Of a DNA stretch of 64,000 nucleotides, positions 19,367-28,619 are shown piece after piece. The position numbers and the translations under genes are program-made. This DNA is from Acinetobacter bouvetii DSM 14964 = CIP 107468 (lineage in GTDB: Bacteria; Pseudomonadota; Gammaproteobacteria; Pseudomonadales; Moraxellaceae), in NCBI RefSeq assembly GCF_000368865.1, contig NZ_KB849726.1:515634-579633 (forward strand), in the 5' to 3' direction. The notes under the pieces are model-generated. The model was not told where the DNA came from and did not search any database. It worked only from the letters and a program-made list of their open reading frames with translations. Numbering within the stretch: the first letter of the stretch is position 1; every line of letters begins with the position of its first letter.

Positions 19367-19483
19367 ATTAAGTCAGTTCTATTTTCGTGAATTCGATTGT
19401 CGCATTATGGTCATAAATACCACATTTAATTGCACGGCCGCGAATAATGAGAGATATTCACTGCTTCCGCATAGGCGATGCTT

Positions 19484-19572
19484 TACTTTTGACAGGGCAA
19501 AAGTAACAAAACCCTTTGCAGAAATAATGGCATGTCCATATGCCATATTTCTGCGGCAGCATCCATGCTGCC
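19484..19572 (+). repeat. Three-hairpin structured intergenic element, copy A
   Basis: Hairpin 1 is TACTTTTG / CAAAAGTA with a six-base loop. It is followed by the shared sequence ACAAAACCCTTT. Hairpin 2 (19518-19554) has a 9-bp lower stem GCAGAAATA / TATTTCTGC, one bulged A, a 6-bp upper stem TGGCAT / ATGCCA and a loop starting GTCC. Hairpin 3 is GGCAGCAT / ATGCTGCC around CC. Copy B at 28452 has the same plan with different but complementary stems. It lies between ruvA and ruvB. Confidence 0.8.
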
Positions 19573-24103: not shown

Positions 24104-27100
24104 ATGTTTATCGTTGCCGGTGCACCTGCACACTCTTCTTTTAAGCAAACACAACTATTAACACGCCTTGCGTCAATCAGTTCTGTTCAATCAATAGAAA
24201 GCCAATGGGTTTACCTTTTCGACCAAGCGCTCGACGAGCAACAACAGCAATCTGCTTTGCAGCTTTTGAATGATGGCGCAACCTTCCAAGTTCGCCAAGC
24301 GGCAAGTGATGAAGTTCAAGTCCTTGTGACACCGCGTGTAGGCACAATCTCGCCGTGGTCATCAAAGGCAACGGATATTTTTGCCAACTGCAATACCCCG
24401 ATACACCGCTTAGAACGCGGTGTTTTGTTTACTTTAAAAGGTATTTCTGAAGTATCGGATGCAGTGAAACAAGTTTTGCATGACCGCATGACTGAAAGTG
24501 TATTCAACCAAATTGAAGACGCTGCGGCATTGTTCTCTGAAACTGAACCAAAGCCTTTAAACACAATTGACATATTAGGTCAGGGTAAAGATGCTTTAGT
24601 AAAAGCCAACTCTGAGTTTGGTTTTGCGCTCTCTGATGAAGAAATTGATTATTTAGTCGCTGCTTTTAACAAGCTCGGCCGTAATCCGCACGATATTGAA
24701 CTGATGATGTTTGCTCAAGCTAACTCTGAGCACTGCCGTCATAAAATATTTGGTTCGGAATGGACAATTGATGGTGAAAAACAGCCATTGTCATTGTTCC
24801 AAATGATTAAAAACACTTATAAAGAATCACCGACAGATGTATTGTCAGCATATAAAGACAATGCTTCGGTGATCGTTGGTTTTGATACTCAGCGTTTCTA
24901 TCCGAAGAAAGATGAGGCGACGGGTCACCACGTTTATAAATACAAGAGCCAAGCCGCTCACATCCTGATGAAAGTGGAAACGCATAACCACCCAACAGCG
25001 ATTGCGCCTTTTGCGGGCGCTGCGACCGGTTCGGGCGGTGAAATCCGTGATGAAGGCGCAACAGGCCGTGGCGGTAAGCCAAAAGCAGGTTTAACAGGCT
25101 TTACCGTGTCTAACTTGAACATTCCAGGCTTTGAACAGCCTTGGGAAGAAAACTACGGCAAACCATCGCGTATGGCATCTCCACTTCAAATCATGATTGA
25201 AGGGCCTTTGGGCGGCGCTGCGTTCAACAATGAGTTTGGCCGTCCTGCGTTAAACGGTTACTTCCGTACTTTTGAACAAAATGTGAATGGCGATGTGAAA
25301 GGCTTCCATAAGCCAATCATGATTGCCGGTGGTTACGGCAACATCCGTCCAGACCACGTGGAAAAAGATGCGATTCAACCAGGCGATTTATTGATCGTCC
25401 TTGGTGGCCCTGCAATGCTGATCGGCCTTGGCGGCGGTGCGGCATCTTCTGTGGACAGCGGTAAACTCGGTGAAAACCTGGATTTCGCTTCTGTACAGCG
25501 TGAAAACCCTGAAATGGAACGCCGCTGCCAAGAAGTGATTGATGCATGCTGGCGCATGGAAGACTTCAACCCAATCGTGTCCGTGCATGATGTGGGTGCA
25601 GGCGGTATTTCCAATGCAATGCCTGAGTTGGTGAATGACCACGAACTGGGTGCGATTCTTGATTTGCGTAAGATTCCATCACTTGAGCCGGGCATGTCTC
25701 CAATGGAGATCTGGTCAAACGAAGCGCAAGAGCGTTATGTATTGGCGATTCGTCCAAGCTCATTAGAACTATTTGAATCACTATGTGCACGTGAACGTTG
25801 TCCGTTTGCCGTTTTAGGTGAAGCAACAGAAGCGCGTCAATTGACAGTGAACGATCCATTGTTTGATAACAAAGCCGTGGATATGCCAATGCAAGTCATG
25901 CTGGGCGGCACACCGCGCATGAGCCGTTCGTATGAAACCATTGAACGTCAAGGCGACGACTTTGATGCATCTAAAGTCACAGATTTGAAAGATGCAATTT
26001 ACCGTGTGCTTAAAAATCCAACGGTTGCATCCAAATCATTCCTGATCACCATTGGTGACCGTTCAATTACAGGTATGGTTGCGCGTGATCAGTTTGTAGG
26101 TCGTTGGCAGGTTCCTGTTGCAGATGCAGCAGTCACTACAACAAGCTTACAAGGTTATACAGGTGAGGCAATGGCGATGGGCGAACGTCCGCCTGTTGCC
26201 TTGTTAAATCCTGCGGCATCTGCACGTTTATCGGTTGCAGAGTCGATCTCGAATATTATGTCTGCAAAAATCGACCAGATCAGTGACATTAAATTGTCTG
26301 CAAATTGGATGGCGGCAGCAGGACAGAAAGGTGAAGACCAAGCTTTATTCGAAGGTGTAAAAGCCATCGGTATGGAAATGTGTCCTGCACTGGGTATTGC
26401 AATTCCAGTGGGTAAAGACTCATTGTCTATGCGTACGACTTGGAATGATGAAGGCGAAGACAAATCGGTGACTTCACCGATGTCAGGTGTAATCACAGCC
26501 TTTGCTCCAGTGACTGATGTACGTAAAACCTTAACGCCTGAATTGAAAAATGAAGAATCAGTACTTGTCCGTATTGATCTTTCTAAAGGTCAGTTCCGTC
26601 TAGGCGGTTCGATCCTTGCTCAGGTCTATAAAGCCATTGGTTCAGTGACACCTGATGTGGATAGTTTTGATGACTTCAAAGCATTCTTTGCATTGGTTCA
26701 AGACTGGAACAACCGCGGTTTAATTAAGGCTTACCACGACATCGGTGATGGTGGTTTACTTGCAACTGTTGCGGAAATGATGTTTGCAGCACGTCTCGGT
26801 GTGGCTTTAGAAGATCAATCAACTGCAAGTTTATTTGCAGAAGAAATTGGTGCAGTGCTTCAAATCAGTGCGTCTGATTGGGCAACACTTGCAGAAGAAG
26901 TTGCGGCATCTACTTTAAAAGATGCAATTGCAGTTGTCGGTACTGTAAATGATACAGATACGTTAACTGTTAATGGTTTGAGCTTAGACCGTGCTGATTT
27001 ACAACAAGCATGGACTGAAGTATCACATCAAATCCAACGTTTACGCGACAACGTTGAAACTGCAGATCAAGAATATGCGTTAATTGCAGACAAATCTCAT

Positions 27101-27940
27101 GCAGGTTTAATTGCAAAACCAACATTTGATTTGAACGAGCCAATCGAAGCACCATACATCAACGAACGCCGTCCAAACATGGTGATTCTGCGTGAACAAG
27201 GCGTAAACGGTCATGTTGAAATGGCTGCGGCATTCGACAAAGTGGGTTTCAACACTGTAGACGTGCACATGAGCGACTTGCTTGCAGGCCGTATCAGCCT
27301 AGATGACTTTGAAGGCCTTGTGGCATGCGGCGGCTTCTCTTACGGTGACGTCATGGGCGCTGGCGGCGGCTGGGCGAAATCAGTTTTGTTCAACCCGAAA
27401 CTTCGTGACCAATTTGAAAAATTCTTCAACCGTGACGAAACGTTCTCTCTTGGTATTTGTAATGGCTGTCAAATGTTGTCGCAATTGGCTCCGCTGATTC
27501 CGGGTGCTGAAGCTTGGCCGCGTTTCCACCGCAATACTTCTGAGATGTTTGAAGCACGTGCAGTTAACGTTCGTGTTGAAAAATCCAACTCAATCTTGTT
27601 AGAGGGTATGGAAGGTTCGATTTTACCAATCGCGGTTGCGCATGGTGAAGGCCGAGTGGTTGCGACTGCGGATAAGATTGCCGCGTTAAATGCAGGCAAC
27701 CAGGTAAGCTTGCGTTATGTTGATAGCCAAGGGAATCCAACGCAGCACTATCCAATGAACCCGAATGGTTCACCAGAAGCGATTACTGCTGTGACTTCTA
27801 AAGATGGCCGAGCAACGATTATGATGCCGCATCCGGAACGTACTTTCCGCGCCATCCAGCATTCTTGGAAACCGGAAGAATGGACTGAAGATGGTGCATG
27901 GTTACGCATGTTCCGCAATGCGCGTAAGTTCATTGGTTAA
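24104..27940 (+). CDS. purL: Phosphoribosylformylglycinamidine synthase PurL
   Basis: This enzyme converts FGAR to FGAM with glutamine and ATP, the fourth step of purine synthesis. The 1278-aa single-chain protein has an N-terminal domain, two AIR-synthase-like ATP/FGAR modules ([20 protein letters not shown] near residue 288 and [16 protein letters not shown]) and a C-terminal glutamine amidotransferase domain. In the latter, the nucleophile is in [15 protein letters not shown], with HGEGR and PHPERTFRA completing the triad. The length is typical of the gammaproteobacterial large form. It is a single gene followed by two terminators. GGAG lies about 10 bases before the ATG. Confidence 0.97.
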
Positions 27941-28405: not shown

Positions 28406-28432
28406 AAAAAACCGCCGAGAGGCGGTTTTTTC
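28406..28432 (+). terminator. Terminator of the 42-aa gene
   Basis: AAAAACCGCC pairs with GGCGGTTTTT around GAGA. It follows the small ORF stop closely and supports that ORF as a real transcription unit. Confidence 0.85.
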
Positions 28433-28451: not shown

Positions 28452-28540
28452 TACTTTTGATTGGGCAAAAGTAACAAAACCCTTTTGTTAGACTGATGGG
28501 ACGTCCTGTCCCACAGTCTAACGTGCGACATCCATGTCGC
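28452..28540 (+). repeat. Three-hairpin structured intergenic element, copy B
   Basis: Hairpin 1 is TACTTTTG / CAAAAGTA with loop ATTGGG, then ACAAAACCCTTTT. Hairpin 2 (28487-28522) is GTTAGACTG / CAGTCTAAC, one bulged A, TGGGAC / GTCCCA, loop GTCCT. Hairpin 3 is GCGACAT / ATGTCGC around CC. It has the same length (89 nt), bulge and loop start as copy A at 19484, while the stems differ in sequence and still pair. Confidence 0.8.
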
Positions 28541-28619
28541 TACTCATGTGATCTAATATTAGTAATTATTTTTTTTCTTTTGTTATCATGTATTAAATGT
28601 AAAATTTATGAGTTAAACG

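Follow-up and report, generated by a model that had tools for sequence, protein, structure and literature searches.

Two intergenic stretches of 89 nt in Acinetobacter bouvetii, copy A at positions 19484-19572 and copy B at positions 28452-28540 of the window (the whole stretch of 64,000 nucleotides that was analysed), raise the question of what kind of element keeps a common fold while the sequence of its stems changes, and of which molecule adopts this fold. A sequence-only reading of the locus had described in both a three-hairpin plan with a bulged A and stem differences that compensate each other; on re-reading of the sequence, coordinates, stems and plan proved to be as described. Copy A does lie between ruvA and ruvB, both named by NCBIfam and both on the minus strand. 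Copy B is located downstream of the phosphoribosylformylglycinamidine synthase gene (24104-27940) and upstream of a 234-aa ORF; a terminator-like hairpin at about 28412-28432, seen by eye and absent from the terminator scan output, is interposed between the synthase gene and copy B. The evidence described below points to an undescribed element whose working form is a folded single strand, either DNA or RNA.

All parts of the two copies are given here on the + strand. In copy A, hairpin 1 (19484-19505; sequence and fold) is formed by arms 19484-19491 and 19498-19505 around the loop 19492-19497. The ACAAAA link that follows (19506-19511), read from the sequence, is spanned by a pseudoknot (19495-19514; sequence and covariation), in which the loop bases GGG (19495-19497) pair with the link bases CCC (19512-19514). 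The lower part of hairpin 2 (19518-19554; sequence, fold and alignment) consists of arms 19518-19526 and 19546-19554 and of the bulged A at 19527, while its upper part is built on arms 19528-19533 and 19540-19545, closing a TCC-containing loop (19534-19539). Hairpin 3 (19555-19572; sequence, fold and alignment) also has TCC in its loop. Upstream of hairpin 1, at 19432-19483 with an approximate boundary, copy A carries a module (GCACGGCC ... ATAGGCGATGCTT) common to part of the family. Copy B, on the same lines of evidence, comprises hairpin 1 (28452-28473; arms 28452-28459 and 28466-28473), the pseudoknot (28463-28482; loop GGG 28463-28465 with link CCC 28480-28482), the lower part of hairpin 2 (28487-28522; arms 28487-28495 and 28514-28522, bulged A 28496), its upper part (arms 28497-28502 and 28508-28513, loop 28503-28507 with TCC) and hairpin 3 (28525-28540, with TCC in the loop), followed by a CATGTGAT-type tail at 28541-28558, approximately bounded from sequence and family comparison. 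RNA folding assigns -38.3 kcal/mol to copy A and -37.9 kcal/mol to copy B, with z = -6.09 for each in a shuffle test in which 0 of 200 shuffles folded equally well.

The search of Acinetobacter genomes with a covariance model, which the sequence-only reading had proposed, finds a whole family with compensating changes, not just two copies. Specifically, a model built from 25 copies (R1) matches 104 of the 119 genomes of the genus at E <= 0.01, with 1-30 matches each, counts that are possibly low as the scan scored at most 36 candidates per genome. In the source genome it recovers 7 strong copies (E <= 7.5e-11), that is, five besides A and B, among 12 matches listed to E 5. A DNA search started from copy A reaches only 4 of these 7, copy A itself included, at E <= 4.8e-4; ordinary repeat searches largely miss the family because what is kept is the fold, not the sequence. 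A and B are therefore members of a non-coding, dispersed intergenic repeat family in Acinetobacter; its core measures about 90 bp, and with module and tail a copy can be as long as about 165 bp. The pattern of hairpin 1 plus link is found in 50/119 genus genomes and its reversed version in 0/119, and is thus beyond chance. Outside the genus the signal fades: in a family-level sample R1 matches 42 of 149 genomes, ten of them, from five other genera, weakly, and the exact hairpin-1 palindrome occurs in 7 of 274 class genomes, the source genome included, where two of the six other loci (L232 and L233) look unrelated. The 80 nearest ruvA loci in a collection of named genomes are all labelled Acinetobacter.

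The bulged A and the link are constant across the 25 aligned copies, and other parts vary in presence. The module upstream of hairpin 1, about 50 bp long, is found in 64/186 copies by a strict pattern that misses some, copy B being without it, and a tail of about 18 bp after hairpin 3 is recognised by pattern in 79/186. In some variants the loop of either hairpin 2 or hairpin 1 contains an extra hairpin; its border letters are similar in both cases, being GAGCA-like and TGCGCAAG-like at loci L022, L026, L034, L038, L046, L079, L380, L385 and L388, as though one cassette could lengthen either hairpin. A long form, in which the same hairpin 1 and link are combined with a longer hairpin whose internal loop is of the TGTTTGAG/CGAGTT type on the minus strand, is seen in other genera of the Moraxellaceae; scattered gammaproteobacteria have similar arrangements. 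In one genome (G137; L241, G137:C47:140000-150000) three successive gaps of a gene cluster, at about 143103, 144362 and 146043, carry relatives in the orientations +, - and +. In another contig (L240, G164:C17:1-8649) short ORFs are separated by a 94-122 nt repeat, of which there are 9-10 copies; this array resembles a chromosomal integron and includes three long-form relatives (4483, 5681 and 8289). One element copy (L423) is placed on a 135-kb plasmid record, A. baumannii plasmid p2VB280821 (NZ_CP098797.1), together with genes of chromosomal appearance, namely those for NAD kinase and mrcB. Similarly, one phage entry (Acinetobacter phage MD-2021a, CAKLQF/CAKLQH) comprises contigs as long as 305 kb that carry the element and may be bacterial, and the A. 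baumannii "plasmid" records NZ_CP077849.1, NZ_CP064203.1 and NZ_CP104448.1, of 3.6-4.1 Mb and with copies, may, judging by their size, be chromosomes.

That the stems are under selection for base pairing, as had been proposed from copies A and B, is borne out by covariation across the family. In the 25-copy alignment, 95.1% of the cells at paired positions, the three pseudoknot pairs included, hold standard pairs compared with 80.0% after shuffling; both-side changes occur in 21 of 32 pairs, and the covariation score is 0.439 against 0.137 for shuffled and at most 0.100 for slid versions. An alignment of 66 further matches (64 distinct), none identical to the copies used for model building, gives the same picture, with 97.6% paired cells, both-side changes in 24 of 29 pairs, and a score of 0.511 (shuffled 0.148, slid at most 0.089). 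Within its 1856 cells, 332 both-side changes are counted against 11 one-side changes, the shuffled value for both-side changes being 73.8. Among the five measures applied to this alignment, the number of further pair types does not exceed the shuffles, as 95 of 500 reach the observed value. An alignment fitted to a structure leans toward that structure; arms with unrelated sequences nevertheless pair over their full length, which alignment fitting could not produce.

A further contact, absent from the sequence-only description, joins the end of the hairpin-1 loop by base pairing to the nucleotides following the ACAAAA link, giving an H-type pseudoknot. Three perfect pairs are present in 106 of 129 parsed copies (134 were tried and two spurious rows left out), and among distinct combinations of loop and link 38 of 53 are perfect, with a shuffle mean of 9.3 and a shuffle maximum of 17. 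Nine kinds of perfect pairing are found, namely GGG/CCC, GAT/ATC, GGC/GCC, TGG/CCA, GCG/CGC, GGT/ACC, GCT/AGC, GAG/CTC and GGA/TCC. One group of copies, with a shortened hairpin 1 (loop TA), has lost the pseudoknot. The fold, pseudoknot included, is thus kept by compensating changes. A DNA cruciform, one of the forms suggested from the two copies, is insufficient to explain this, since neither cruciform extrusion nor the correction of palindrome arms yields a covarying contact between loop and link. In other words, it is the folded single strand that counts.

The distribution of the copies among genes was examined in 136 distinct copies with a simple ORF caller, a set in which orthologous copies are counted repeatedly and two spurious rows are included. 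Between codirectional genes lie 103 copies, 54 antisense and 49 sense, so that no orientation bias relative to transcription appears; 26 are convergent, 4 have one side open and 2 fall inside an ORF call. Only 1 is divergent, and copies avoid divergent gaps. The absence of an orientation preference leaves the proposal of a transcript-end structure unsupported.

Whether the ruvA-ruvB junction is empty or filled differs between species. Measured from the ruvA stop through the first ruvB codons in 30 genomes, this stretch is 24-29 bp long in 4 and 224-347 bp in 26. In 80 named genomes, the gap is empty in 35 (4-45 bp), holds the element in 18 and a long relative (type 2) in 9; another 12 gaps are of other kinds, which include several variants of the two forms, and the remaining 6 were left unparsed. 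R1 matches the gap in 22 of these 80, with 3 additional weak matches in long-form gaps, and records labelled A. lwoffii show either form. In three genomes (G000, G081 and G114) the module is common to the ruvA-ruvB sites while hairpin 2 can be unrelated, which argues that pieces of the element recombine or get replaced. Some sites are kept across many species, beyond what is expected of a neutral mobile repeat, and this counts against a mobile reading. Terminal inverted repeats together with a target-site duplication would mark a MITE; neither insertion ends nor such a duplication could be read in these elements, and the filled and empty ruvA-ruvB gaps are too diverged.

Orientation emerges when replication is considered. 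The analysis covered 16 genomes with the chromosome in one or two contigs and 150 of their 157 matches, with the origin placed at dnaA and the terminus assumed to lie opposite. Among the matches listed, the + strand is the lagging-strand template in 104 of 150 copies and in 90 of 122 singletons, and 15 of the 16 genomes lean in the same direction, the one that leans the opposite way (G085) having 2 copies that agree and 6 that disagree. To count orthologous sites once, 102 places with flanks (101 among the matches listed and one from the hairpin-1 pattern search) were collapsed into 55 clusters; in the 54 singleton locus clusters, the + strand serves as lagging-strand template in 41, the opposite holds in 12 and 1 is mixed (p = 8e-5). 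Accordingly, the + strand is preferentially the lagging-strand template. The bias is 15:1 in sense, 17:7 in convergent, 9:4 in antisense and 1:0 in one-sided contexts; since it also appears in convergent and antisense contexts, it is not merely a by-product of transcription. Neighbouring copies less than 400 bp apart are inverted in 14 of 14 cases among the matches listed in the 16 genomes, with 5' ends facing in 11 and 3' ends in 3. Across all aligned loci, with repeats counted, 33 of 33 close neighbours are inverted (22 with 5' ends and 11 with 3' ends facing) and none runs in the same direction. An inverted pair taken alone is uninformative as to strand (14 vs 14), and most copies are single. 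In the window, GC skew is positive in all eight 8-kb steps, so that A and B obey the strand rule, provided that skew marks the leading strand as usual.

The mismatches within the stems give a different indication. In hairpins 2 and 3 of 186 distinct copies, 96.3% of the cells are Watson-Crick, 0.72% G.T and 1.73% A.C. So few wobble pairs argue for DNA, or else for strong selection on perfect pairing. Along a spanning tree of these copies, whose edges are a rough stand-in for mutation events, the tally is 60 A.C against 30 G.T (p 0.002); an earlier single-linkage collapse, with 109 of 133 copies in one cluster, had given 23 A.C against 16 G.T (p 0.34). As an A.C on the + strand corresponds to a G.U on the minus strand, the mismatches favour a fold of the minus strand, whose loops carry GGA. 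This evidence conflicts with the replication bias, which favours exposure of the + strand.

Comparison with known repeats places the element closest to REPs. REP hairpins are bulged, and the Acinetobacter element also has a bulged hairpin. With REP, BIME and REPIN structures it further shares inverted pairs and a tie to single-stranded DNA. In line with the description of REPs as intergenic hairpins between codirectional or convergent genes in PMC3733652, element gaps are distributed as 103 codirectional, 26 convergent and 1 divergent of 136. PMC6006769 describes the lagging-strand template as the target of single-stranded DNA elements, IS608 among them. It also defines the REP foot as GT[AG]G, a tetranucleotide located at the hairpin's 5' base; a constant foot of this kind is absent from the family, in which a weak GTAG-like stretch occurs in the module of some copies, ATAG stands in copy A and copy B has no module. 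No Y1_Tnp gene was found in the source genome, and genes of this type (RAYT-type) are present in 22 of 119 genus genomes (20 over the cut-off) compared with 104 of 119 for the elements, so that the distribution gives no support to RAYT as the mover. A mobile REP-like element thus fits best among the candidates of the sequence-only reading as regards dispersal, presence and absence at a site, inverted pairs and avoidance of divergent gaps, but the constant GTAG foot and a RAYT gene in the source genome, both hallmarks of REPs, are missing. Nothing came to light in favour of the recoding element that this reading also named. The element is also longer, with three hairpins and a pseudoknot, does not keep its stem sequence, and has about ten copies instead of hundreds. 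Since its distribution is REP-like but two defining REP tests failed, we would class it as a new family of REP-like repeats.

Other known systems are more distant. ERIC and bcr1-type repeats are, like this element, intergenic, of about 100-160 bp, folded and multi-copy; we know of no sequence kinship with them, a separation made by description, and the Acinetobacter element differs in having a pseudoknot and stems that are replaced rather than conserved. Integron attC sites present the boxes RYYYAAC ... GTTRRRY in this order in the folded site. An attC identity was rejected, because hairpin 2 shows the opposite order (GTT ... AAC) and the boxes are not preserved in many copies. Within the 64-kb window no Rfam family matches at curated cut-offs, and at permissive thresholds nothing reaches its cut-off for A, B, long-type or distant relatives. 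The best sub-threshold match at copy B is isrK (25.9 bits, cut-off 50); rsmX scores 23.8 bits on the minus strand of copy B (cut-off 56, E 0.011) and gives no match for copy A at a permissive threshold, and both the isrK and the rsmX matches lean on the terminator-like hairpin beside copy B. A literature search, mostly without subscription papers, returned no description of this family. The intrastrand triplex repeats of Holder et al. 2015 (PMC4666352) are likewise intergenic, with a proposed unusual single-strand DNA fold and some inverted pairs, and differ in their G/C-rich motif, sequence and fold; the part of that text consulted reports no strand bias and does not mention Acinetobacter. 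In the flanks of L021, L045 and L048, CCCTCTCC...GGAGAGGGCTAGGG-like stretches near the element resemble the G/C-rich triplex motif as given in that part of PMC4666352.

Which function, then, would account for these properties? An unlikely answer is a structured RNA from the minus strand, in which two GGA-loop hairpins followed by the pseudoknot would bind CsrA/RsmA, as a sponge RNA or a cis site. TCC, which is GGA on the minus strand, is present within the hairpin-2 region of 129 of 132 copies and the hairpin-3 region of 127 of 132, four defective or spurious rows being left out; the minus-strand loops read like the CsrA consensus, CANGGAYG; the mismatch excess of the spanning tree favours a fold of this strand; and a plasmid collection has 4 Acinetobacter records with CsrA relatives. 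The likeness to RsmX, RsmY and CsrB-type small RNAs (rsmX, RF02144) is confined to GGA in the hairpin loops of the minus strand, and the element departs from them in its many scattered copies, its pseudoknot and its sub-cut-off Rfam score, which copy B alone attains. Moreover, copies show no bias with respect to transcription, a scan for promoter consensus comes up empty around B and yields a single site around A, against 0.9 expected, the share of G.U is low for an RNA, and the earlier mismatch collapse was non-significant. Less probable again is a cis-acting mRNA structure that in either orientation would affect stability, processing or spacing within operons, ruvAB for example. Nearly every copy is in a position to be read through from at least one gene, the ruvA-ruvB site is kept in many species, and relatives fill three successive gaps of the G137 gene cluster; against this, 35 of 80 genomes do without an element between ruvA and ruvB, orientation matters for replication and not for genes, and a role exerted in two orientations does not predict a pseudoknot with constant loops.

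The remaining alternatives concern DNA. The least probable of all we consider to be palindromes without function that perfect themselves, template switching in hairpins of the lagging-strand template making the arms match. Hairpins do form on this template, and the changes lead from one Watson-Crick pair to another through few wobble states; yet the pseudoknot, which is not an arm pair, still covaries, the loops, bulged A and link are constant, and the plan is present in 104 of 119 genomes. Scarcely more probable is that the pseudoknotted fold of the lagging-strand template, at about ten copies per chromosome, serves the replication machinery as a signal analogous to phage complementary-strand origins or primosome assembly sites, or else is the mark of a single-stranded DNA element moved by a class of enzymes not yet tied to repeats. 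The reading that we prefer, with a probability just short of even, is that of a new REP-like repeat family selected as a single-strand fold, probably as single-stranded DNA at replication forks. In such a mechanism, a protein that handles single-stranded DNA at the fork would recognise the fold and then spread the copies or keep them. This handling would resemble that of IS608 and REP hairpins by Y1 transposases, with a protein that in most genomes would not be a RAYT, and new stems would arise via recombination between copies, replacement and paired mutation.

Copies are found in operons, ruvAB among them, and the genus counts important human pathogens among its members. A covarying pseudoknot, together with a bias for one replication strand, makes it testable whether chromosomal repeats are recognised at the replication fork as folded single strands.
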